NCBI RefSeq assembly: GCF_000564855.1
Contig: NZ_AYXG01000142.1
Span: forward strand, 1-35,170
DNA: 35,170 nucleotides
Origin: Actinokineospora spheciospongiae
Lineage (GTDB): Bacteria > Actinomycetota > Actinomycetes > Mycobacteriales > Pseudonocardiaceae
Direction: 5' to 3'
Below the pieces are notes generated by a model. The model was given only the letters and a program-made list of their open reading frames with translations. It had not been told where the DNA came from and ran no database searches. Position numbers and translations under genes: made by a program. Below are positions 10,746 through 29,618 of this stretch, piece by piece. The first letter of the stretch is position 1. Each line of letters begins with the position of its first letter.

Positions 10746-10828
10746 GATCTCCCGCTGATTGCGGACCGAACCTGTCCGCAACGGGTCCTAGAGTTCTCCT
10801 CAACAGACCGAGAGCGAAGGCGAACACC

Positions 10829-11359
10829 ATGAACCTGATCCAGGACCGCACCCAGGCCGAGCCCGTCGAGAACCTCACCGGTGAGCGCGCCGACCTGCTG
10901 GAGACGCTGCGCACCCACCGCGGCTTCCTGCGGTTCACCGCCCAGGGGATCACCGACGAGCAGGCGCGGACCCGGACCGGTGCCAGCGAGCTGACGCTGG
11001 GCGGGCTGATCAAGCACGTGGCGCACACCGAGGCGGCGTGGGCGCGGTTCATCCAGGGCGGCGCGGCGGCGATGGAGAGCGTCGAGGCCGACTGGGCGGC
11101 CGAGTTCCGGATGACCGAGGGCGAGACGGTGGAGGGGCTGCTGGCCGAGTACGCCGAGATCGCCGCGGCCACCGACGCGCTGGTGGCGACGGCCGACCTG
11201 GACGTGGCGCACCCGCTGCCGGTGGCGCCGTGGTTCGAGGTGGGCAAGAGCCGGTCGGTGCGGCGGGTGCTGCTGCACATCATCGCCGAGACCGCGCAGC
11301 ACGCGGGGCACGCCGACATCGTCCGCGAGGGCCTCGACGGGCAGAAGACGATGGGCTGA
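10829..11359 (+). CDS. DinB/DUF664-family protein (mycothiol-transferase-like)
   Basis: 176 aa starting at ATG 10829 with a GAGAGCGAAGG leader. It has a four-helix-bundle pattern and the family's metal-binding histidines: GGLIKHVAHTEAAWARF near residue 60 and LLHIIAETAQHAGHADI near residue 155. DUF664 members are mostly uncharacterised; related DinB-fold proteins include mycothiol-dependent isomerases and S-transferases. The gene stands alone between a strong terminator and the molybdopterin enzyme. Confidence 0.82.
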   Translation: MNLIQDRTQAEPVENLTGERADLLETLRTHRGFLRFTAQGITDEQARTRTGASELTLGGLIKHVAHTEAAWARFIQGGAAAMESVEADWAAEFRMTEGETVEGLLAEYAEIAAATDALVATADLDVAHPLPVAPWFEVGKSRSVRRVLLHIIAETAQHAGHADIVREGLDGQKTMG

Positions 11360-11435
11360 GGACTGAGCTGAGGACTGGACTGACGATCGGGCTGAGGTTG
11401 ACGGGGGGCGGGCGCGGTGGGTGAGACTGGTCGGC

Positions 11436-13505
11436 ATGACGACGACCCGGTTCGCGACCTGCAACCTCTGCGAAGCCTGTTGCGGGCTGGAGCTGACCGT
11501 CGAGGGCGGGCGGGTCGAGGCGGTCAGGGGGGACAGCCGCGACCCGCTCTCGCGGGGGCACCTGTGCCCGAAGGCCGTCGCCCTGCCGGACGTGCACGCG
11601 GACGGCGAGCGGCTGCGGACGCCCGTCCGGCGCACCGCTGACGGGTGGGAGGCGATCTCCTGGGAGGCCGCCTTCGACCTCGTCGCCACCCGCCTCGCCG
11701 ACGTCCGCGACCGGCACGGGCGGGACGCGGTCGGGGTGTACCTGGGGAACCCGACCGTGCACAGCCTCGGCGCGCTCACCCACGGCACCGGGTTCATGGG
11801 GATGCTGCGCACCCGCAACCGCTTCTCGGCCACCTCCGTCGACCAGTTGCCGCACCACCTGGTGGCGTACCTGCTCTACGGGCACCAGTTGATGCTGCCG
11901 ATCCCGGACCTCGACCGCACCGACCACTTCCTGGTGATCGGCGGGAACCCCATGGCCTCCAACGGCAGCCTGATGACCGTGCCCGACTTCGCCAGGCGGC
12001 GGCGGGCGCTGGCCGAGCGCGGCGGCCGGATGGTCGTGGTCGACCCGAGGCGCACCGAGACCGCGAAGGTCGCCGACGAGCACCACTTCGTCCGGCCGGG
12101 CACCGATGCCGCGCTGCTGCTGGCGATGGTGCGCACGATCCTGGCCGAGGACTCGGCCGACCCGCCGTCCTACGTGGATGGCATCGACGTCGTGCGGGAT
12201 GCGGTTGAGGGGTTCACCCCGGAGTGGGCGGCGCCGATCACCGGGATCGACGCGTCGACCACCGAGCGGCTGGCGCGGGAGTTCGCCGGGGCGCGGTCGG
12301 CGGTCTGCTACGGCCGGACCGGGGTGTCCATGCAGCAGCACGGCGCGGTGTGCCAGTGGGCGATCCAGGTGCTCAACGTGCTCACCGGCAACATCGACCG
12401 GCCCGGCGGCGCGCTGGTCACCAAGCCCGCGGTCGACGTGCTCAAGATGGTCTCACCGGGGCACTTCGGCGCCTGGCGCAGCCGGGTGCGCGGCCTGCCG
12501 GAGTTCGCCGGTGAGCTGCCCGTGGCCGTGCTGGCCGAGGAGATCGAGACGCCGGGGGACAAGCAGATCAAGGCGTTCGTCGTCAACGCGGGCAACCCGG
12601 TGCTGTCCACTCCGGACGGTCCGCGGTTGGCGAGGGCGTTGGCCGGGTTGGACTTCATGGTGGCCATCGATGTGAAGGTCAATGAGACCACCCGGCACGC
12701 CGACGTGATCCTGCCGCCCACGCCGCTGCTGGAGCGCGACCACTACGACATCATCTTCAACGCGTTCGCCGTCCGCGACACCGCCCGCTTCGCCCCCGCG
12801 GTGCTCCCCAAGCCGGAAGAAGCCCGCCACGACTGGGAGATCTTCCGCGAACTCGGTCTCCGCTACCGCAAGCGCTTCAAGGGAAAGCGGTTCGACACGC
12901 TCCGCCTCCGCCTGAGCCCCAGGGTCCTGCTCGACGTCCTCCTGCGCACCGGCCCCCACCGGCTCTCGGTCCGCAAGCTGCGCAAGAACCCGAACGGCGT
13001 CGACCTCGGCCCGCTCAAGCCCTCGTTCCCGCAACGGTTGCGCACCGAGGACAAGCGGATCGACCTGGCGCCGAAGCTCGTGCTGGACGGTCTGGGGGCT
13101 GTGCGCGAGCTGCGCGCCGGGGACGGCCTGCTGCTCATCGGCCGCAGGCACCTGCGGGCCAACAACTCCTGGATGAACGACGTCGACCGCCTCACCAGGG
13201 GCAAGGCCCGCCACCACCTGCTCATGCACCCGCGCGACCTCGCCGAGCACGGGATCACCGACGGCGCCGAGGTGCGCGTGCGCTCGGCCGTGGGTGAGGT
13301 GCGGGTGCCGGTGACCTCCTCCGACGAGGTCATGCCCGGGGTGGTGAGCCTGCCGCACGGCTACCGCGCGGCCAGCGCCAACGACCTGACCGACCCCGCC
13401 GTGCTCGACGGGGTCTCCGGGAACGCCGTGCTCAACGGGGTGCCGGTCCGCGTCGAGGCGGTCGGACCGGCACCCCGGGGGGTCACTTCTTCTTCGGCCT
13501 CGTGA
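11436..13505 (+). CDS. Molybdopterin (bis-MGD) oxidoreductase, formate dehydrogenase-like
   Basis: 689 aa from ATG 11436; an in-frame GTG lies 15 nt upstream. The N-terminal 4Fe-4S motif is C9-x2-C12-x3-C16 with the fourth cysteine in HLCPKA near residue 43. Mo-pterin binding segments follow: VIGGNPMASNGSL, VVDPRRTETAKVADEHHFVRPGTDAALL and GRTGVSMQQHGAVCQW. The C-terminal molydop-binding domain includes RRHLRANNSWMND and LMHPRDLAEHGI. At the position where FDH carries Sec/Cys, the sequence reads RFSATSVDQLPHH, with no Cys or Sec, so the Mo ligand may be Ser or Asp (inference). There is no twin-arginine signal, hence probably cytosolic. The substrate is unknown. The last 23 nt overlap the convergent SDR gene. 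Confidence 0.9.
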   Translation: MTTTRFATCNLCEACCGLELTVEGGRVEAVRGDSRDPLSRGHLCPKAVALPDVHADGERLRTPVRRTADGWEAISWEAAFDLVATRLADVRDRHGRDAVGVYLGNPTVHSLGALTHGTGFMGMLRTRNRFSATSVDQLPHHLVAYLLYGHQLMLPIPDLDRTDHFLVIGGNPMASNGSLMTVPDFARRRRALAERGGRMVVVDPRRTETAKVADEHHFVRPGTDAALLLAMVRTILAEDSADPPSYVDGIDVVRDAVEGFTPEWAAPITGIDASTTERLAREFAGARSAVCYGRTGVSMQQHGAVCQWAIQVLNVLTGNIDRPGGALVTKPAVDVLKMVSPGHFGAWRSRVRGLPEFAGELPVAVLAEEIETPGDKQIKAFVVNAGNPVLSTPDGPRLARALAGLDFMVAIDVKVNETTRHADVILPPTPLLERDHYDIIFNAFAVRDTARFAPAVLPKPEEARHDWEIFRELGLRYRKRFKGKRFDTLRLRLSPRVLLDVLLRTGPHRLSVRKLRKNPNGVDLGPLKPSFPQRLRTEDKRIDLAPKLVLDGLGAVRELRAGDGLLLIGRRHLRANNSWMNDVDRLTRGKARHHLLMHPRDLAEHGITDGAEVRVRSAVGEVRVPVTSSDEVMPGVVSLPHGYRAASANDLTDPAVLDGVSGNAVLNGVPVRVEAVGPAPRGVTSSSAS

Positions 13506-21411: not shown

Positions 21412-23898
21412 TTGGCTGAGGGGGCGGACGCGCTACCGGTGGTCTCGGTGGTGGTGGTCAACTACCGCGGCGCCGAGGACACGACGACCTGCGTGCGCGC
21501 GCTGCGGGCGGAACTGGACTACCCGGCCGACCGGTTGCAGGTGGTGGTGGTCGACAACGGTGGGCACGACGCCGAGCGGCTGCGCGGGCTCGACGGCGTC
21601 GACCTGGTCGTCTCCCCGGAGAACCTGGGCTTCGCGGGCGGGTGCAACCTGGGGGTCGAGCACGCCACCGGCAGCGTGCTGGCGTTCCTGAACAACGACG
21701 CCCGACCCGATCCGCAGTGGGCGCGCGCCGCCGTGCGGGTGCTGGCCGAGCAGCCGGACGTGGCCGCCGTCGCCAGCAAGGTCGTCGACTGGGACGGCAC
21801 CGGCATCGACTTCGTCGACGGCGGGCTGACCTGGTTCGGCATGGGCTACAAGCGCCACGCCGGGCAGCCGGACGACGGCTCGCACGACGCCCCGCGCGAC
21901 GTGCTGTTCGCCACCGGGTCCGCCATGTTCGTCCGCGCCGGGGCCTACCGCGAGCTGGGCGGCTTCGACGAGCGGTTCTTCATGTTCTACGAGGACGTCG
22001 ACCTGGGCTGGCGGCTGAACCTGCGCGGCTGGCGGGTGCGCTTCGAGCCGGGCTCGCTGGCCTACCACCGCCACCACGCCTCCATGTCCAAGGTGGACAC
22101 CGAGGACAACGCGCGCGAGCTGTTCCTGCTGGAGCGCAACGCGTTGCTGGCGATGTACAAGAACCTCTCCGACGCCACCCTGGCCAAGGCGCTGCCCGCC
22201 GCGCTGGCGCTGGCCGTGCGCCGCTCGACCGCGCGCGGGGACCTGGACGCCACCGCGCTGGAGATCACCCGCGACGGCCCGACCGAGCAGCGCGTGTCCC
22301 CGCCCGCGCTGGCGGGCATCCTGGCGATCGACCAGTTCGTCGAGCTGCTGCCCTCCCTCGCCGCCGCCCGCGAGGACGTGCAGGCGAGCCGGGTCCGCTC
22401 CGACGCCGACATCGTGCCGCTGATGCGCCGGGCCATGGAACCCGCCTACCCGCTGCCGCGCTACCTGGCCGCGCACGACATCCTCGTCGAGGCGTTCGGC
22501 CTGGAGGATGCGTTCGGCGCCCGCCGCAGGGTCCTGGTGATCACCGGCGACGCCATCTCCGAGCGGATGGCCGGACCGGCGATCCGCGCCTGGAACATGG
22601 CCGACGTCCTCGGCGCCGAGCACGAGGTGCGGCTGGTGACGGTCAACCCGCTGTGCGTGCCGCCGCCCGCACCGTTCCCGGTGCTCAAGTCCCGCCCGCG
22701 CGACCTCGGCGACCACGTCGACTGGGCCGACGTCGTCATCCTGCAGGGCCACGCGCTGGAGATGGTCCCCGCGCTCAAGGCCGCCGACTCCACCAAGGTC
22801 GTGGTCTGCGACATCTACGACCCGATGCACCTGGAACTGCTCGAACAGGGCAAGGACACCGTCGCCGAGCAGCGCGAACTCGACCTCATCGGCGTCACCG
22901 CCGTCCTCAACGCCCAGTTGGAGCGCGGCGACTTCTTCGTCTGCGCCTCCGAGCGGCAGCGGCACTTCTGGCTCGGGCACCTGATGGCGCTGGGCAGGCT
23001 CACCCCCGCCCTCTACGACACCGACCCCACGGTGCGGTCTTTCCTGGGCGTGGTCCCGTTCGGCCTGCCGGGCAAGCCGCCGCAGCAGTCCGCGTCCCCG
23101 ATCAAGGGCGGCCTGGTCGGCGAGTCGGACAAGGTCGTGCTCTGGGCGGGCGGGGTCTACAGCTGGTTCGACCCGCTGACCCTGGTCTCCGCGATCGGCG
23201 AGCTGGCCGGGCGCCGCGACGACGTGCGGCTGGTGTTCCTGGGCATGAAGCACCCCAACCCCGAGGTCCCGGAGATGGACATCGGCACCCAGGTGCGCAC
23301 CCTGTCCGGGCAACTCGGGCTCACCGGGCGCAACGTCTTCTTCAACGAGACCTGGGTCCCCTACGACCGCCGCCAGGACTGGCTGCTCGACGCCGACGCC
23401 GGGGTCACCACGCACTACGAGCACGTGGAGACCACCTTCGCGTTCCGCACCCGGGTCCTGGACTACCTGTGGGCCGGGCTGCCGATCGTCACCACCGACG
23501 GCGACGCCTTCGCCGACCTGGTGCGCACCGAGGGCCTGGGCGTGGTCGTGCCCGCCGAAGACGCCACCGCCCTGGCCGCCGCCCTGGAACTGGTCCTCTA
23601 CGACGCCGAGTTCGCCGCGGCCTGCCGGGAGCGCATCGCGGTCGTGGCGCAGCGGTTCACCTGGGAGAACGTCCTGGCCCCGCTCACCGCGTTCTGCCGC
23701 GACCCGCGCCCGTCCGCCGACCGGCTCCCCGGCGCGGAGCCCCTGGTCGCGCGCCCCCCGCTGGGCGCGGCGGGAACCGTGCTGCGCGACCTCGCCCTGA
23801 TCCGCGAATACCTCGACCGCGGCGGCCCGGGTGAGCTGGCCAAGCGCGCGGCCGGCCGCGTCCGCCGACTGGCCAAGGAGCGGCTGCGACGTGGCTGA
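21412..23898 (+). CDS. Bifunctional GT2-GT4 glycosyltransferase fusion
   Basis: 828 aa from TTG 21412, chosen for the GAGGAGG site. Residues about 9-260 are a GT2 domain: VSVVVVNYRGAEDT, VVVDNGG (46-52), FLNNDARPDPQW (92-103), GSAMFVRAGAYRELGGFDERFFMFYEDVDLGW (spanning 169-200). After a linker of about 110 residues, residues about 373-770 form a GT-B/GT4 domain (VLVITGDAISERMAGPAIRAW; VLWAGGVYSWFDPLTL; THYEHVETTFAFRTRVLDYLWAGLPIVT). The C-terminus is basic. Two transferases on one chain suggests successive sugar additions to one growing polymer. The next gene starts inside this one (8-nt overlap), so they are coupled. Confidence 0.9.
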   Translation: MAEGADALPVVSVVVVNYRGAEDTTTCVRALRAELDYPADRLQVVVVDNGGHDAERLRGLDGVDLVVSPENLGFAGGCNLGVEHATGSVLAFLNNDARPDPQWARAAVRVLAEQPDVAAVASKVVDWDGTGIDFVDGGLTWFGMGYKRHAGQPDDGSHDAPRDVLFATGSAMFVRAGAYRELGGFDERFFMFYEDVDLGWRLNLRGWRVRFEPGSLAYHRHHASMSKVDTEDNARELFLLERNALLAMYKNLSDATLAKALPAALALAVRRSTARGDLDATALEITRDGPTEQRVSPPALAGILAIDQFVELLPSLAAAREDVQASRVRSDADIVPLMRRAMEPAYPLPRYLAAHDILVEAFGLEDAFGARRRVLVITGDAISERMAGPAIRAWNMADVLGAEHEVRLVTVNPLCVPPPAPFPVLKSRPRDLGDHVDWADVVILQGHALEMVPALKAADSTKVVVCDIYDPMHLELLEQGKDTVAEQRELDLIGVTAVLNAQLERGDFFVCASERQRHFWLGHLMALGRLTPALYDTDPTVRSFLGVVPFGLPGKPPQQSASPIKGGLVGESDKVVLWAGGVYSWFDPLTLVSAIGELAGRRDDVRLVFLGMKHPNPEVPEMDIGTQVRTLSGQLGLTGRNVFFNETWVPYDRRQDWLLDADAGVTTHYEHVETTFAFRTRVLDYLWAGLPIVTTDGDAFADLVRTEGLGVVVPAEDATALAAALELVLYDAEFAAACRERIAVVAQRFTWENVLAPLTAFCRDPRPSADRLPGAEPLVARPPLGAAGTVLRDLALIREYLDRGGPGELAKRAAGRVRRLAKERLRRG

Positions 23899-24967
23899 CC
23901 GGCTCCGCGTGCTGATCGACGGGACGCCGCTGCTGGGCAACCGCACCGGCATCGGCCGCTACACCGCTTCGCTGGCCGAGGAACTGGCCGCCATGTCCGA
24001 TGTGGACATGCGCGCGGTGGCCTTCACCCTGCGCGGCTGGCGGCGCCTGCGGTCGGTGCTGCCGCACGGGGCCCAGGCGCGCGGCATCCCGGCCCCCGCC
24101 CGACTGCTCCGCAAGGCCTGGCTGCGCGGGCCCTTCCCCCAGGTGGAGCTGTTCGCAGGTCTGACCGACGTGGTGCACGGGACGAACTTCATCCTGCCCC
24201 CGGCCTTCCGCGCGGGCGGCGTGGTAACGGTGCACGACCTGGACTTCCTGGACCACCCGGAGCAACTGGCACCCACGGACGCGGAACTGCCCGCCCTGGT
24301 GCGCTCCTCGGTCCGCCGCGCCGGGGTGGTGCTGACCCCGTCCGCCGCGGTCGCCGCCGAGGTGGTCTCCCGGTTGGACGTGCCCGAGGAGAAGGTCGCG
24401 GTGACCCCACTGGGGGTGGACCTGGCGTGGTTCACCGCCCGACCCCCGTCGACCCCGCTCGCGGCCCGGCTGGGCCTGCCCTCGGAGTACCTGCTGTTCG
24501 TCGGCGCCGCGGGACCGCGCAAGTCGCTGGACTGGCTGGTCGCCGCGCACGCGGCCACTCCCTCGCTGCCGCCGCTGGTGCTGGCCGGAACGGGGCACAC
24601 GCCGGGACCGGGGGTGCTGACCACCGGCTACCTGTCCGAAGTGGACCTCCGGTCGGTGGTGGCCGGGGCGTCGGCACTGGTGCTGCCGTCCCGGGAGGAG
24701 GGGTTCGGGCTGCCGGTGCTGGAGGCCATGGCCTGTGATGTACCGGTGGTCTGCACGGACGTCCCCGCCCTGCGGGAGGTCTCCGGCGGCCACGCCACCC
24801 TGGTCCCCTTCGGCGACGTCGAGGCGATGGGCGCGGCGCTGACCTCGGCCCTGGAACACCCCACCTCGGCGGACACCTCGGCCGCCCGGCGCGGGTACGC
24901 GGCGGGCTACACCTGGCGGCGGTGCGCGGAGCTGACCGTGGCCGCCTACCGCCTCGCCGCGAGCTGA
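23891..24967 (+). CDS. GT4-family glycosyltransferase
   Basis: 358 aa from GTG 23891, overlapping the previous stop by 8 nt. GT-B fold: RVLIDGTPLLGNRTGIGRYT at the N-terminus, HGTNFILP and VVTVHDLDFLDHPEQ in the acceptor domain, then FVGAAGPRKSLDWL and the nucleotide-sugar EEGFGLPVLE motif with E270-x7-E278. It is related to the mannosyl/rhamnosyl GT4s at 29717 and 30912. The last about 28 codons (329-356) are duplicated in degraded form at 27536-27618, on the other side of the peptide cassette. It was probably the end of an original operon now split from the downstream GT4 genes. Confidence 0.92.
   Translation: MADRLRVLIDGTPLLGNRTGIGRYTASLAEELAAMSDVDMRAVAFTLRGWRRLRSVLPHGAQARGIPAPARLLRKAWLRGPFPQVELFAGLTDVVHGTNFILPPAFRAGGVVTVHDLDFLDHPEQLAPTDAELPALVRSSVRRAGVVLTPSAAVAAEVVSRLDVPEEKVAVTPLGVDLAWFTARPPSTPLAARLGLPSEYLLFVGAAGPRKSLDWLVAAHAATPSLPPLVLAGTGHTPGPGVLTTGYLSEVDLRSVVAGASALVLPSREEGFGLPVLEAMACDVPVVCTDVPALREVSGGHATLVPFGDVEAMGAALTSALEHPTSADTSAARRGYAAGYTWRRCAELTVAAYRLAAS
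24875..24958 (+). repeat. Left copy of an 84-bp repeat flanking the peptide cassette
   Basis: The 3' end of the GT4 gene (codons for AARRGYAAGYTWRRCAELTV). About 85% identical by eye to 27536-27618 in the same orientation. It marks the left edge of the inserted segment. Confidence 0.85.
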
Positions 24968-25056: not shown

Positions 25057-25656
25057 TCAGGCGGGCGTGAAGTGCGTCCGCAGCCCGTCAGCCTGGTGGT
25101 CGATCTCGGTCACGATGTCGGCGAGGTCGGGCTGTCGCGCGGCCGGGCGGGCGAGCGACCACACGGTGATCTCGCCGGGCTTGCGCGGGTGTGGCGCTGC
25201 CCGGACCACCCGCCAACCCTGCCGCCGGTAGTAGCGCACCAGGCCGAGGTTTCCCCCCTCGCTGTCGGTGAGCACACCGCGGCGCACCCACTGCCGTCCT
25301 TGTCGGGCGGCGCGGTCGAGTGCCCAGAACGCGACGACCATGCCCACGCCGCTCCCCGCCCGCGACGGGTGGGTCACGGTGGATTGCAGGAAGATCGCCG
25401 ACGCGGCTCGTTCCTGCTCGGTCCACCCGAGCGTGGGTGTCTCATCGGCCGTGGTGACGGCGAGCAGCACCCCGTCGTCGACGAGTGCCCACACCGGCCA
25501 GTCGGGTTCGGTGACCTGGTCGGCGAGGTGCTCGGCGGAACCGACCCACCCGCGCCAGCGGCGCAGGCCCTGCTCGCGCATCCAGTCCGCTCGGGTTCGG
25601 ACGAGGTCGGCGACTTGGTCTCGGTCTCCTGCCTCGGCCGGTCGAATCACGTACAC
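25057..25656 (-). CDS. GNAT-family N-acetyltransferase, candidate RiPP-tailoring enzyme
   Basis: 199 aa from GTG 25656 with GGGAGA upstream. The GNAT fold is visible: VIRPAEAGDRDQVADLV as strand 1/helix 1, strand 4 IFLQSTVTHP (88-97), the acetyl-CoA loop RAGSGVG (99-105), and strand 5/helix 4 GGNLGLVRYYRRQGWRVV (134-151). The start lies inside the 3' end of the AsnS-like gene (10-nt overlap), so translation is coupled. Acetyltransferases accompany the albusnodin/triculamin type of lasso peptide, where a lysine of the peptide is acetylated; here the peptide offers K38 and K48. Alternatives are self-protection by acetylating the product, or an unrelated GNAT. Confidence 0.88.
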   Translation of the reverse strand: MYVIRPAEAGDRDQVADLVRTRADWMREQGLRRWRGWVGSAEHLADQVTEPDWPVWALVDDGVLLAVTTADETPTLGWTEQERAASAIFLQSTVTHPSRAGSGVGMVVAFWALDRAARQGRQWVRRGVLTDSEGGNLGLVRYYRRQGWRVVRAAPHPRKPGEITVWSLARPAARQPDLADIVTEIDHQADGLRTHFTPA

Positions 25657-27254
25657 GGTGCGCTCTCCCGTTCGCTGCTGTGAGCTGTCATCGCCCGTAG
25701 CGCCAGTTCGAGGGAGAGCACGGGGAAGACCTTCATGTCGACCTGTTCGCCCTGCTCCCACTGGCCCATCGCTGCGCGCAGCGCGTCGCCGTCGACGAAC
25801 CCGTGATCGACCGTGATCGCCTCGGCCGACAGCTCTGCGAGCAACGGCATACCGTACTCGCGGAGTCCGGCGCCCATGACGTGCCGGAAGTTCTCCCGAA
25901 GGTGTGGATACCTGGCGTCGTCGGAAAACCCGATCCGGCGGAACCTCTCGCGGCAAATGTGCTTGTCGACCCGCCACGGCACCGGGAGCTGTTCGGCGAA
26001 GCGGATCAACCGCGGCGAGCACAACGGCGACACCGGCCAGATACCCGCGTCGAGGAACTGCGGCGAGCGCAGCGCGAACCCGAGCAGGGTCGCCTCATTG
26101 ATCACCGTCGGCGGGGCGAGGTCGTCGTCGACAGCGTCGAGCTGGTCGAGAGTGCGGCGGCCGAGCCACGCGGGCAGTCGCTCGTGATCGGAGAACCGTC
26201 CGCGCACTTTGCCCACCGATGCCCACTCGTTCCCGCGCAGGCTGAGCAGCTCGTCGCCCCCATCGCCGGTGAACACCGTCCGCACACCGCGGTCACGGGC
26301 TGCGGCGAGGATGGCGCCGACCGCTTCGTGATATGGCTCGGCGCCGGGCTCGACGAACATCCTGCGGGCCCGCGCGCCATCGGGGTTGAACGGTGCGAGC
26401 GGCAGCGCGTCGACGATCAGGTCGAGAAATCCGAGGTGGCGCAGCATCTCGGCCCGGCGCCGTAGCTGCTGCTCGCCCGCCTCGCCGCCGATCGCGAGCG
26501 CGTAGGCGAGCACTTCACCATGGTGTTCCTCGGCGAGGGTGACCGCCACCGACGCCGAATCCATGCCGCCGGACAGCTCGACCGCCGATGCCCGTGGATC
26601 GAACGGGCGCGCGTACACCGCACCGGAGAGCACGCGCCGGTAGACCTCGACGACGTCGACGTCGTCGCGCACCTCGCGGGGCAAGGCGTGCTCGGCGGGT
26701 GCCGGGTAGCGCATCACGAGCCCGTTGTCGCCGTAGGTGGCGTGCGCCCGCTCGGTCAGCATGTGGACCCCCTGAAACAGGGTCTCGCGTGCGTAGCGGG
26801 TGCGTTCGGTCAGCAGGCGGGCGACCGAGCGTTCGTCGAGCGCGTCGAGGCTGAACTGCTGTCGAAGGTCGGGCAGCGACCACGATCCGCGCAGCCGTCC
26901 CCCGGCATCGGTCAGGTACAGCGGCGCCGTCCCCCACGTGCCCGACGTGATGCGAAACCCGGCGGTCGGCGTGCACTCGACGAGCACGAAGTCGAGCGGC
27001 CACGCCTTGATCTCGTCGAGCAACCGCCGATAGGTCGGGGTGTCCGTGGTCGTGAAAACCTGTGCCGGACCGAACCCCGCCACCTCGCGAGCACGTTCGC
27101 GCACGGCGACAAACGTCGAAACGCCGTCGGTGACCGCCGCGTGTTCGAGCATCGGGTGCTCGTAGGGGCGAACTGCGCTCACCCCATCCGACCAGTGTTC
27201 ACCATTCCAACGCCAGTCATTGCCGGGGCGCCTTCGTAAGCAGAGCTTGAGCAT
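25647..27254 (-). CDS. Asparagine-synthetase-like macrolactam (lasso) cyclase
   Basis: 535 aa from ATG 27254 with TTGGAG five bases upstream. The Asn-synthase domain carries the ATP pyrophosphatase loop ELSGGMDSASV (SGGMDS at 228-233), FTGDGGDELL (328-337), and the C-terminal VDKHICRERFRRIGF. The N-terminal part resembles the Ntn/glutaminase fold in outline but begins MLKLC, without the Cys2 nucleophile that glutamine-dependent AsnB needs. It therefore does not use glutamine. This is the state of lasso-peptide cyclases and beta-lactam synthetase, which adenylate a carboxylate side chain and close a ring. The 52-aa peptide lies 59 nt upstream and a GNAT is coupled downstream. Family: AsnB-like is certain; lasso cyclase is inferred from context. 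Confidence 0.85.
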   Translation of the reverse strand: MLKLCLRRRPGNDWRWNGEHWSDGVSAVRPYEHPMLEHAAVTDGVSTFVAVRERAREVAGFGPAQVFTTTDTPTYRRLLDEIKAWPLDFVLVECTPTAGFRITSGTWGTAPLYLTDAGGRLRGSWSLPDLRQQFSLDALDERSVARLLTERTRYARETLFQGVHMLTERAHATYGDNGLVMRYPAPAEHALPREVRDDVDVVEVYRRVLSGAVYARPFDPRASAVELSGGMDSASVAVTLAEEHHGEVLAYALAIGGEAGEQQLRRRAEMLRHLGFLDLIVDALPLAPFNPDGARARRMFVEPGAEPYHEAVGAILAAARDRGVRTVFTGDGGDELLSLRGNEWASVGKVRGRFSDHERLPAWLGRRTLDQLDAVDDDLAPPTVINEATLLGFALRSPQFLDAGIWPVSPLCSPRLIRFAEQLPVPWRVDKHICRERFRRIGFSDDARYPHLRENFRHVMGAGLREYGMPLLAELSAEAITVDHGFVDGDALRAAMGQWEQGEQVDMKVFPVLSLELALRAMTAHSSERESAPCT

Positions 27255-27275
27255 GAAAACTCCAAAACAGGCGTC

Positions 27276-27300
27276 GGGAGCGGGCGAACCGCCCGCCCCC
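27276..27300 (-). terminator. GC hairpin between the precursor peptide and cyclase genes (attenuator)
   Basis: An 11-bp stem (27276-27286 with 27290-27300, one G-U pair) with a 3-nt loop lies between the peptide stop and the cyclase start. In the transcript direction a TTTT follows within about 10 nt. Such partial terminators or mRNA-stabilising hairpins are common after RiPP precursor genes and raise precursor over enzyme. Inference from position. Confidence 0.6.
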
Positions 27301-27313
27301 TGAGTAGGCCGAT

Positions 27314-27472
27314 TCAGATTTCGTCGTACTTGCTGCGGGTGTCGGACGAACCGGGGATCTTGTGGTACTCCGTCGCCTGCACCGAGATCGACGCCGTGCC
27401 CTCGAACACGTTGTCGAAGGTCTCGGATTCCGTTGTCGTTCGGTCCAAGACGGCACCCGTTGTGGTCGTCAT
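27314..27472 (-). CDS. 52-aa putative RiPP (lasso-type) precursor peptide
   Basis: ATG 27472 is preceded by a strong GGAAGGAG site, stop at 27314. The N-terminal half is Thr/Glu/Asp-rich and leader-like (TTTTGAVLDRTTTESE). The C-terminal half contains ATEYHKIPGSSD, then TRSKYDEI to the end. With Thr34 at -2, the core would begin at Tyr36 and a nine-residue ring could close on Asp44, leaving the tail TRSKYDEI. A second option is Thr26 at -2, core from Ser28, ring to Glu35. Lys38 and Lys48 are possible acetylation sites. There is no Cys. The evidence that it is a gene: good ribosome binding site, codon usage, place directly before an AsnB-like cyclase on the same strand and a hairpin after it. 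The product is predicted, not known. Confidence 0.75.
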   Translation of the reverse strand: MTTTTGAVLDRTTTESETFDNVFEGTASISVQATEYHKIPGSSDTRSKYDEI

Positions 27473-27487
27473 GTCGTACTCCTTCCA

Positions 27488-27535: not shown

Positions 27536-27618
27536 ACCTCAGCCGCCCGGCGCGGGTACGCGGCGGGCGGCACCTGGCGGCGGTGCACCGAACTGACCGT
27601 GCCGTTTACCGGCTCGCC
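27536..27618 (+). pseudogene. Decayed duplicate of the GT4 3' end (right copy of flanking repeat)
   Basis: In the plus direction it encodes SAARRGYAAGGTWRRCTELTV, closely matching the C-terminus of the GT4 at 23891-24967 (AARRGYAAGYTWRRCAELTV). One base is lost near the end and there is no gene upstream of it. By eye identity is about 85% over 83 bp. It is the residue of a second, slightly diverged GT gene end and brackets the peptide-cyclase-GNAT operon together with 24875-24958. Confidence 0.85.
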
Positions 27619-27788
27619 TTCGAAACCCGTGAACACGCCACCCGCCCGATCCGCTGCGACGGCGTCAGCACCCGCGTTGTCATCGCACTCCCATTCGGTC
27701 CTCGTCGCAGCCGGTGTCTCCATGAGATCGTGGCCGGGTCCGATTGGGCAGATGACATTCGATGACATCGGAGAAGGAGCACGCGAGC

Positions 27789-28250
27789 GTGGTTCGATAC
27801 GTGACGGTCACCGGCACACGCTCGATCACCGGCGAGTGCGAGGCCCAGCTCCCCGACTTGTTCGACGGCTACCTGCGACCGTTCGCGGATGCGGAATCCC
27901 ATTTCCACCTCGGCGGCGCCGCCGGGATCGACACCGCCGCGCTGGAGTGGCTGGCCGCGCACACCCCAGCGTCGCTGACCGTCGTGGTGCCGTGCACCGT
28001 GGCTGACCAACCAGCAGTCGCGAATGAGGCCATCCGACGGTGGCAAGGACGAGGTCGGTTGGCAGAAGTCGTCGAGTTGGGAGCCGGGAAACTCGGCACC
28101 TCGGCATACCACGCCCGCAACCGGTGGATGGTCGACCGCAGTGGGTTCGTGATCGGTTTTCCACACGGTACCCAGCCGACAAGCGGCACCTGGTACACCG
28201 TGGATTACGCCGCCGAACAGGGGAAACCGCGACTGGTCGTGCCAGTCTGA
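27789..28250 (+). CDS. SLOG/DprA-like Rossmann-fold protein
   Basis: 153 aa from GTG 27789, chosen for the GAGAAGGAG site; ATG 27762 is an alternative but lies upstream of that site. Strand 1 YVTVTGTRSIT, the glycine motif GGAAGIDTAALEW (42-54), ARNRWMVDRSGFVIGFP (109-125), and SGTWYTVDYAAEQGKP are the order expected of SLOG proteins (the DprA/YspA/LOG superfamily), which bind nucleotides or nucleotide-derived ligands. No catalytic LOG motif PGGxGT is present: the equivalent reads TSGTW. It is followed after 27 nt by an XRE/TPR regulator, so ligand sensing or signal processing for that regulator is a reasonable hypothesis. Not a DNA-uptake DprA (too short). Confidence 0.75.
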   Translation: MVRYVTVTGTRSITGECEAQLPDLFDGYLRPFADAESHFHLGGAAGIDTAALEWLAAHTPASLTVVVPCTVADQPAVANEAIRRWQGRGRLAEVVELGAGKLGTSAYHARNRWMVDRSGFVIGFPHGTQPTSGTWYTVDYAAEQGKPRLVVPV

Positions 28251-28277
28251 CGGAAGGCGGGTGGTGTACTGGTCATC

Positions 28278-29618
28278 GTGACCACCGCCGATCGTGACAC
28301 CGGTGCCCGCCTCTTGCGCAGACTGCGCGAGAAGCGCGGCTGGTCTTGGGCAGATCTGGCGCGAGCGCTGCGGGACACCGCGCGCGGGCTCGCGGTCACG
28401 CCTCTGATGAACAGGCAGGTGACGAGCATTCAGCGCACCGTTGCCAGATGGGAAAGCCTCACCGACCGAACCAGCCCCGGCGATCGCTACCAGTTCCTCC
28501 TCGCGCACCTCTATGCCCGAACCCCATCCGGCCGCATCGTGTTGGGGCCTCGATCGGACTTCGTTGTCCTCTTGGACGCTCTCCGCCATTTCGGAACGTC
28601 GCCACAACGCGTGCGTCAACTTGTCGACCTGATCACTCAGGAGGTGAGTGGCGACAGCGGTGAGGTGTTGCTGCCTCCTTCCGCGTATTCGAGCACCGCC
28701 GTGCTCCGACGTGATCCATCGTGGCTCGATCACGAGGTGCTCGGCCTGCTGCGTGAATCGGTCACGGTGATTGACAAGCAGGTCGGATCGGTCCCGTTCG
28801 CCCGTCTCCAACTCCAGCTCGCGCCTGCCATCGAGACGTGCCGCCAGGTGTTGCGGCTCGACCACGCGAGCCCGCAGGGCGAACTGGTGTCGCTCGCCAT
28901 CGATGCTTACGCACTCGGCGGCCGGTTGGCCTTCGAAACCCGCGACGACGAGACGGCCATGGCGCTGTACGCAGACGCGACCGAGGTGGCTGGACGACTC
29001 GACGATCGAAGTCGCCGGGCTGTCGTGCGGACGAGTCACGCCATGGTGACCCTGCATGCGACCAACGACCTGGAAGCGGCCCAGAAGATCGCCCATGCCG
29101 CGACCGTTGACGCCCATCGAGGCGCCAGTTACGCGATTCGAGCCCGCGCACACGCCGTCCACGCTGAAATCTGCGCTCGCGCCAGCCAGACCGTCGATGC
29201 GGCCACCGCGCTCGAACGGGCGTGGAAGACCGTGGACAAATTGACCGTTGATGACCCCCGCGGAGGGTTCACAGCCGACCGCTTGAACGGTTTCGATGGA
29301 CTCTGCGCTCTCCACACAGGCGACGCGCGCCGTGCCCACGACCACCTCGACCGGTCTCTTGGCGCGTTGAGGAAGTCGAGAGACGCGGTCCAACGGGGCA
29401 TCGTGGGCACCGACCTGGCCCTCGCCCGACTACGCCTCGGCGATCCGGAGGCCTGCGTCGACCTCCTGCACGAGGCCGTGGAGATCACGGCGACCACCGG
29501 CGGCCGTGTTCCCGCGCAACGGATCAGGCTGGCGCGGCAAGAGCTGCGCCCATGGCGGGCGGAGGACTTCCTGGCCCAACTCGATGATCACATCCACGAC
29601 ACGCTGCTGGGTCCGTGA
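28278..29618 (+). CDS. XRE-type regulator with helical TPR-like C-terminus
   Basis: 446 aa from GTG 28278. The N-terminal helix-turn-helix spans about 10-60 (LLRRLREKRGWSWADLARAL...VTSIQRTVARWES), with an insertion before the recognition helix. The remainder is helical repeats (LVSLAIDAYALGGRLAFETRDDETAMALYADATEVAG; AHAVHAEICARASQTVDAATALERAWKTV; DLALARLRLGDPEACVDLLHEAVEI). This is the same general class as the regulator at 6472 but not close in sequence. It likely controls the SLOG gene, itself, and possibly the divergent peptide operon. Confidence 0.83.
   Translation: MTTADRDTGARLLRRLREKRGWSWADLARALRDTARGLAVTPLMNRQVTSIQRTVARWESLTDRTSPGDRYQFLLAHLYARTPSGRIVLGPRSDFVVLLDALRHFGTSPQRVRQLVDLITQEVSGDSGEVLLPPSAYSSTAVLRRDPSWLDHEVLGLLRESVTVIDKQVGSVPFARLQLQLAPAIETCRQVLRLDHASPQGELVSLAIDAYALGGRLAFETRDDETAMALYADATEVAGRLDDRSRRAVVRTSHAMVTLHATNDLEAAQKIAHAATVDAHRGASYAIRARAHAVHAEICARASQTVDAATALERAWKTVDKLTVDDPRGGFTADRLNGFDGLCALHTGDARRAHDHLDRSLGALRKSRDAVQRGIVGTDLALARLRLGDPEACVDLLHEAVEITATTGGRVPAQRIRLARQELRPWRAEDFLAQLDDHIHDTLLGP

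Follow-up and report, generated by a model that had tools for sequence, protein, structure and literature searches.

The window analysed here, the whole 35,170-nt stretch of Actinokineospora spheciospongiae contig NZ_AYXG01000142.1, carries a cassette of three minus-strand genes, namely a peptide gene (27472-27314), an AsnB-like enzyme gene (27254-25647) and a GNAT acetyltransferase gene (25656-25057), in that order, with the enzyme and GNAT open reading frames (ORFs) overlapping by 10 nt. An earlier reading of the bare sequence, hereafter the original prediction, had placed the genes in this way, with a peptide of 52 aa and an enzyme without the glutaminase Cys2, and all of this was confirmed. 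The features of the cassette are as follows.

27314..27472, minus strand: precursor peptide gene, 52 aa (ORF 27472-27314; homologues by tblastn at loci L036-L041)
27479..27486, minus strand: ribosome binding site GGAAGGAG, read from the sequence, its end lying 6 nt 5' of the ATG
27359..27361, minus strand: codon of the invariant Lys38, by counted position (KIPGSSD begins at residue 38)
27341..27343, minus strand: codon of the invariant Asp44, counted in the same way
25647..27254, minus strand: AsnB-like enzyme, 535 aa, proposed ATP-dependent macrolactam synthetase (hidden Markov model scores, trees and fold model)
26556..26573, minus strand: SGGMDS ATP-pyrophosphatase loop of the AsnB-like enzyme, residues 228-233, from the alignment
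25057..25656, minus strand: GNAT acetyltransferase gene, 199 aa, GTG start

The window peptide reads MTTTTGAVLDRTTTESETFDNVFEGTASISVQATEYHKIPGSSDTRSKYDEI; its true start may lie further in, the nearest homologues being 36-41 aa long. By tblastn, it was found 5' of the enzyme gene in six further genomes (L036-L041) with E values from 2.8e-16 to 2e-4. We then scanned 93 loci for the motif Lys-x5-Asp, at least seven pairs of which are one contig reached by two search routes, so that the independent number of loci is smaller. Sufficient upstream sequence was available at 91 of them, 81 with a full-length and 10 with a partial enzyme. A small upstream ORF with the motif was present at 73 of the 81 full-length-enzyme loci and at 3 of the 10 partial ones, while the control gave 26 such ORFs in 1704 random windows of the same loci, both strands included. 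Among the eight misses (L059, L094, L149, L154, L095, L098, L099 and L109), L059 has the motif in an ORF that continues into the enzyme frame, the L094 precursor exceeds the length limit of the scan, the L149 sequence is masked, and at L154 the motif is there and the start was not found; the other four are considered below.

ORFs were also chosen blind to the motif, by start codon, ribosome site, length and position only, which yielded 52 distinct peptides (compared over the last 25 residues) from 71 loci. Lys and Asp stand at distance 6 in 48 of these 52; the next best Lys-Asp distance in the range 3-10 occurs in 16, Arg-Asp at distance 6 in 2, and Lys-Glu at distance 6 in none. The four misses are L104, where the wrong ORF was chosen, and L098, L099 and L109, where the distance is 7. 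Among 39 peptides assembled by hand, all 25 actinobacterial ones and 11 of the 14 proteobacterial ones show distance 6, and 2000 shuffles of this set gave a mean of 8.2 and a maximum of 16 peptides with that distance. Conservation of the peptide thus exceeds chance both in the motif scan and in the blind ORF choice. The commonest form of the motif is K-x-x-G-x-x-D, with the fourth-place Gly in 33 of the 48 peptides. Two residues before the Lys, the same 48 have Tyr in 11, Ala in 11, Leu in 6 and Thr in 3, and a conserved Thr is absent. The ratio of nonsynonymous to synonymous differences (pN/pS) was 0.35 for the Amycolatopsis peptides (21 pairs), and 0 for L039/L040 (3 synonymous differences); two pairs of less closely related peptides gave 0.37 and 0.48. 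Ten precursors compared with NCBIfam had a single match, at chance level, and nine compared with Pfam had none.

Some precursors contain more than one copy of the motif. At L094, in a betaproteobacterial metagenome-assembled genome (JAEUMY010000024.1), a 318-aa multi-core precursor lies directly 5' of the enzyme gene (relative positions -1120 to -163); it has 14 KxxGxxD units (KIAGARD, KAPGARD or KPSGTTD), and a basic stretch comes after every unit. Hint-like and zinc-ribbon-like proteins, recognised by eye only, are encoded upstream of it. The Acidovorax precursor at L097 has two K-x5-D units. At L061-L065 the enzyme genes are broken or partial; four of these loci have enough upstream sequence, and a peptide match was found only in L062. 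The GNAT match at L061 is retained over residues 2-185.

The enzyme scores 54.4 bits against the Pfam model Asn_synthase and passes its cut-off of 21. Its best NCBIfam match is the albusnodin/ikarugamycin cyclase model NF033561, at 47.1 bits and thus far under the cut-off of 300; it reached 38.7 bits against the asparagine synthase model TIGR01536 (cut-off 267) and 23.1 bits against NF033535 (cut-off 525). Three of four relatives scored 31.8, 32.7 and 42.4 bits against NF033561, and the fourth had no match at E 0.01. Residue 2 is Leu, and the glutaminase Cys2 is present in none of the 24 rows of alignment A1. On the other hand, S228, G230, D232 and S233 of the ATP loop are invariant (24/24 rows in A1 and 30/30 in alignment A2), and G229 is kept in 24/24 and 29/30 rows. 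Residue 453, which aligns with the AsnB-type catalytic lysine (E. coli Lys449), is Lys in 10 of the 11 proteobacterial A2 rows; none of the 19 actinobacterial rows has Lys there, the residue being Arg, Pro or Thr. Residue 431 is Lys in 19/19 actinobacterial and Arg in 11/11 proteobacterial rows of A2, and the catalytic lysine has perhaps moved between these two positions.

In two quick trees, the enzyme family formed a clade of its own with support 100, apart from both asparagine synthetases and lasso-type cyclases. The first tree contained 19 lasso-type rows chosen by NF033561, 8 of them above its cut-off and all 10 that were examined for it having PF13471 within about 2 kb; the second added 3 proteobacterial lasso-type cyclases adjoining PF13471. 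The original prediction had named two results as fatal to it, an enzyme clustering with asparagine synthetases and homologous loci lacking a conserved small peptide gene. Neither was observed: the enzyme clade is separate in both trees, and the peptide gene is conserved at 73/81 loci and in 48/52 peptides. The enzyme model has the fold of beta-lactam synthetase and AsnB. From asparagine synthetase B, whose fold and ATP loop it has, the window enzyme differs by the lack of Cys2, by its separate clade and by the low TIGR01536 score. Beta-lactam and carbapenam synthetases have the AsnB fold and form intramolecular amides on small-molecule substrates. The former is the best Foldseek match of our model, but identity in the Foldseek rows is 14-19% and the catalytic-lysine position is not kept in the actinobacterial members. 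A phmmer search of the PDB gave one meaningless match for the enzyme and three weak ones for the GNAT.

Lasso peptide clusters carry the C, B1 and B2 genes, or a fused B. In the source genome, PF13471 (lasso leader peptidase) has a single match, on contig C138, and PqqD (PF05402) has two, on C138 and C207; neither has any on the window contig C141, and a divergent RiPP recognition element (RiPP, ribosomally synthesised and post-translationally modified peptide) could escape the PqqD model. The statement of the original prediction that leader machinery is missing nearby therefore stands. A separate lasso-like cluster with a cyclase match, PqqD and PF13471 is located elsewhere in the same genome (G000:C138:79369-81403). 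At E 0.001, we searched for PF13471 in 18 carrier genomes out of 29 found in the family search. It is wholly absent from 8 of them, seven of which are at least 98% complete, and in the other 10 each match either sits on a different contig or is separated from the cassette by about 290 kb or more, so that none of the 18 has it beside the cassette. Among 12 proteobacterial carriers, 5 are without PF13471 and 6 have one above the cut-off anywhere in the genome. No transporter was recognised among the window ORFs, as judged by eye only. Lasso isopeptidases belong to the S9 prolyl-oligopeptidase family, and S9 prolyl-oligopeptidase genes were seen near the peptide-enzyme pair at L241 (a Xanthomonas sacchari plasmid; annotation and Pfam) and L102 (Rhodanobacter; by eye only).

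The third gene of the cassette varies within the family. The window GNAT has weak Pfam matches below the cut-offs (Acetyltransf_CG, E 0.0038; Acetyltransf_1, E 0.038), while its homologue in L040 lies above the cut-off (E 2.8e-6), and the window GNAT model (predicted local distance difference test score 89.9) has GNATs as its nearest PDB chains. The GNAT assignment is thus weak by the window sequence and clear by the L040 homologue and the predicted fold. The peptide-enzyme-GNAT triplet foreseen by the original prediction recurs in the six other genomes (L036-L041). It is also seen, with the GNAT gene reversed, in Streptomyces, Actinomadura and Marinitenerispora, so that the link of this gene to the cassette survives rearrangement. 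Within the flanks available for the 93 loci, a GNAT homologue (E 1e-4) was found at 25, an S-adenosylmethionine (SAM) methyltransferase (E 1e-10) at 39, both at 0 and neither at 29; note that some loci repeat one genome and that flank lengths differ between loci. Judged from these sequences, acetylation is not constant in the family, as a methyltransferase replaces the GNAT in 39/93 loci. The peptide ends in GDxC in 17/17 distinct peptides of methyltransferase loci and in 0/13 of GNAT loci, a split that tracks the tree and does not represent 30 independent events. In two Streptomyces plasmids, an ATP-binding cassette (ABC) transporter gene lies downstream instead (by annotation for both and by Pfam for one).

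The peptide-enzyme pair has, by its sequences, the general hallmark of a RiPP system, a short precursor gene that is conserved next to the gene of a modifying enzyme. Asparagine synthetase uses ATP to activate the beta-carboxyl of Asp, which ammonia then attacks. The best explanation for the cassette, which we consider probable with moderate confidence, is that the enzyme acts as an ATP-dependent macrolactam synthetase joining the Asp44 side chain to the invariant Lys38, most likely via the lysine side chain. Specifically, the operon product would be a RiPP, and the N-terminal part of the 52-aa peptide would be a leader recognised by the AsnB-like enzyme. The enzyme would use ATP to adenylate the Asp44 side-chain carboxyl, just as free aspartate is activated by asparagine synthetase; no ammonia would be supplied in the absence of the glutaminase Cys2, and the Lys38 amine of the same peptide would attack instead. 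This would yield a macrolactam between Lys38 and Asp44, most likely through both side chains, and its closure would need no leader peptidase. The interchangeable accessory genes, for an acetyltransferase here and for a methyltransferase or ABC transporter elsewhere, would finish, cap or export it. The order and conservation of the genes, the Lys-Asp constraint, the distinct enzyme clade and its modelled fold are what the data show, and from these we infer the role of the peptide as substrate, the formation of the bond, the amine that takes part and the target of the GNAT. Joining Asp44 to Lys38 is the simplest reading because an AsnB fold without glutaminase stands beside a peptide with Asp and Lys fixed at distance 6. 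The lysine side chain is preferred as the nucleophile because the Lys is invariant and an alpha-amine would not demand Lys, because the repeat-internal Lys of multi-core precursors would otherwise need a cut before each of them, and because the lasso leader peptidase is missing beside the cassette.

Several observations weigh against this macrolactam proposal. According to the alignments, the catalytic-lysine position (453) is not kept in the actinobacterial members, and the tree program warned of long branches meeting. The spacing of 7 residues is not universal, since the proteobacterial L098, L099 and L109 have a Lys-Asp distance of 7 rather than 6, and no peptide was found upstream at L095, whose enzyme match was counted as full-length. 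In addition, the sequences counted are related to one another and some of them share a genome, so that they are not independent events; likewise, the GNAT/methyltransferase pattern tracks the tree. The pN/pS between the window peptide and L036 is 0.83, from 8 differences only and thus uninformative. Finally, the invariant Lys is the sole Lys in 3 of the 6 distinct window-type GNAT precursors (L037, L038 and L040), and therefore the GNAT must acetylate something else if the Lys side chain is in the ring.

The last point would be accommodated by a non-canonical lasso or branched-cyclic peptide, in which a protease encoded elsewhere cleaves on the N-terminal side of the invariant Lys, the alpha-amine of this Lys is joined to the Asp at position 7, and the GNAT acetylates the Lys side chain left free, also in the three single-Lys precursors. 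We regard this as rather unlikely. Lasso rings have 7-9 residues and are closed on Asp or Glu, so that Lys1-Asp7 would fit a 7-residue lasso ring; the distance of 6 also fits a side-chain bridge. Among NCBIfam models, the enzyme matches one of a lasso-type cyclase best, though far under its cut-off, but it falls outside the lasso-type clades in both trees. If the alpha-amine reacts, position 1 need not strictly be Lys, yet the Lys is nearly invariant. A leader peptidase adjoins the cassette in 0/18 genomes and is wholly absent from 8, and the multi-core precursor of L094 also argues against such processing. A penultimate leader Thr before the core is typical of lasso peptides, and with a core starting at the Lys, this position would hold Thr in only 3/48 peptides. 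With the lasso cyclases (NF033561 family, LrcC and AlbC), the window family shares an AsnB-type enzyme, a small precursor gene and, in some clusters, a GNAT; it differs from them in its separate clade, in having no B1/B2 and no conserved Thr before the Lys, in an invariant Lys that would be the first ring residue, and in a methyltransferase as the alternative to the GNAT. From sequence comparison, the family appears to keep only the C-like function of lasso clusters, in a different clade.

The enzyme might instead activate Asp44 for ammonia or another amine as acceptor, in an amidation or conjugation, with the Lys serving recognition. This seems to us improbable, since Cys2 is present in 0/24 rows, which means no glutaminase, and the fixed Lys-Asp distance in 48/52 peptides is hard to explain through recognition alone. 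Membership in the canonical acetylated lasso class of albusnodin or triculamin type, which the original prediction had favoured, is very improbable. An AsnB-like enzyme, a small peptide and a GNAT do occur together, but the enzyme misses the NF033561 cut-off (47 of 300 bits) and lies outside the lasso-type cyclases in both trees, and a methyltransferase replaces the GNAT in relatives. Moreover, passages of the published descriptions give the lariocidin cluster as LrcB1B2C, an ABC transporter and a GNAT, grouped with the triculamin cluster (PMC11451635), and the albusnodin cluster as albA, albB, albC and albT, with acetylation on Lys10 (PMC9266682). B1 and B2, present in these clusters, are absent at the cassette, and compared with lariocidin the window has only the C-like and GNAT genes, the absence of a transporter being judged by eye. 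The statement in the original prediction that triculamin-type clusters lack B proteins was thus not borne out by those passages on lariocidin (B1/B2) and albusnodin (albB). Of that interpretation as a whole, the triplet and the absent leader machinery hold, and the albusnodin/triculamin-type membership is not supported. That the peptide ORF is accidental or serves regulation, the enzyme having a small molecule as its substrate, is likewise very improbable, given a coding sequence with a strict motif conserved across bacterial phyla.

The macrolactam proposal also calls for comparison with graspetides such as microviridins, in which ATP-grasp ligases form amides between Lys and Asp/Glu side chains. 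If the proposal holds, the Lys-Asp/Glu side-chain amide would be shared, and multi-core precursors also occur in graspetides. The window enzyme is AsnB-type and has another fold, and the residue at distance 6 is Asp, not Glu. No ATP-grasp family was among the Pfam matches of the three cassette proteins, to which this search was limited.

The enzyme-peptide pair is widely distributed. The family search of 390 genomes gave 29 with an enzyme match at E <= 1e-20, and the class search of 394 genomes gave 11 at E <= 1e-30, both including the source genome. A contig scan with the window enzyme alone found no close relative, while an alignment of 24 enzymes as the query found at least 80 loci. We used the first 47 of these (L066-L112), leaving aside the remaining 33 as weak matches (E 2e-8 or worse). 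The actinobacterial ones belong to Saccharothrix, Streptomyces, Frankia, Longimycelium, Amycolatopsis, Actinomadura, Marinitenerispora, Pseudonocardia and others, and Luteibacter, Dyella, Rhodanobacter, Acidovorax, Bradyrhizobium, Sphingomonas and Gluconacetobacter are among the proteobacterial ones. In PLSDB, 54 plasmid records match the enzyme, 34 of Rhizobium and 13 of Bradyrhizobium. Among the 30 matches listed, the plasmid genes under the match are mostly annotated as asparagine synthase-related or asparagine synthase C-terminal domain protein. Of six plasmid regions examined, five list the peptide gene as encoding a hypothetical protein, and in the sixth, from Mesorhizobium, it is unannotated. 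Conserved neighbours were sought at 16 proteobacterial loci, and besides the enzyme none occurs in more than 3.

On two Rhizobium symbiosis plasmids (L238 and L239), the peptide (..IKGGKPGDMDKLDV) and enzyme genes come after an acyl-homoserine-lactone synthase gene, which is rhiI from its place beside the rhi genes. L238 is pRL10 of Rhizobium johnstonii 3841 (10820-13041 and 14107 on), where nifHDK come next. The word asparagine is absent from the main text of PMC5977203, PMC13133039 and PMC5852556, which deal with these Rhizobium systems, and likewise from that of PMC7794033. None of the titles and abstract openings retrieved by searches of open-access literature contains a description of this peptide/AsnB-like family, subscription papers on triculamin, albusnodin and triculamin-like lassos lying outside that search. 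Within this scope, no established name was found for the peptide-enzyme pair, which also occurs in other actinobacteria and in proteobacteria.

Around the cassette, four further features were noted in the window.

27762-28250, plus strand: SLOG/DprA-like protein, divergent to the cassette (weak Pfam matches, below cut-off)
28278-29618, plus strand: helix-turn-helix protein, divergent to the cassette (weak Pfam matches, below cut-off)
24875..24940, strand not assigned: 66-nt direct repeat, copy 1, inside the 3' end of the glycosyltransferase ORF 23831-24967
27536..27601, strand not assigned: 66-nt direct repeat, copy 2, 91% identical, just 5' of the peptide gene

The divergent SLOG/DprA-like and helix-turn-helix pair (27762..29618) is a possible regulator. 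Helix-turn-helix-looking genes divergent to the peptide gene were also seen at L039, L040, L044, L049, L052 and L053; these were assigned from protein clusters, two of them by eye, and the window protein (28278-29618) from its weak Pfam match. PADLOC does not suggest a defence function: none of the three cassette proteins had a match, and the SLOG-like neighbour matched ShosA weakly (E 5e-4). The two repeat copies bracket the cassette, since a 3'-terminal portion of the glycosyltransferase gene occurs a second time just upstream of the peptide gene, and from its sequence the repeat may mark how the cassette was inserted. The glycosyltransferase gene beside the cassette was present in all 16 genus genomes searched, including the source genome. 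In the 15 others, the second glycosyltransferase gene of the window did not turn up next to it within the about 1.5 kb compared, so that no empty insertion site was demonstrated.

Taken at its widest, the proposal would define a new RiPP class across Actinomycetota and Proteobacteria, also on legume-symbiosis plasmids, with a third AsnB-type clade, a Lys-Asp side-chain macrolactam (K-x5-D, often KxxGxxD) made without leader removal, and interchangeable acetylation, methylation and export modules; we give this an even chance of being right. If true, the AsnB fold has been recruited more than once for peptide ring closure, and side-chain lactams are not exclusive to ATP-grasp enzymes, the window family being a fold-unrelated counterpart of graspetide chemistry. 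Searches demanding PF13471 beside Asn_synthase would overlook these loci, and a large set of peptides, the scanned members of which had no meaningful NCBIfam or Pfam match, would become findable by one motif. The central prediction, a loss of 18 Da that depends on the Lys and the Asp, is accessible since the pair consists of two genes only. The copies beside the acyl-homoserine-lactone synthase gene, and beside nifHDK in strain 3841, prompt the question whether the legume partnership involves a quorum-regulated peptide.

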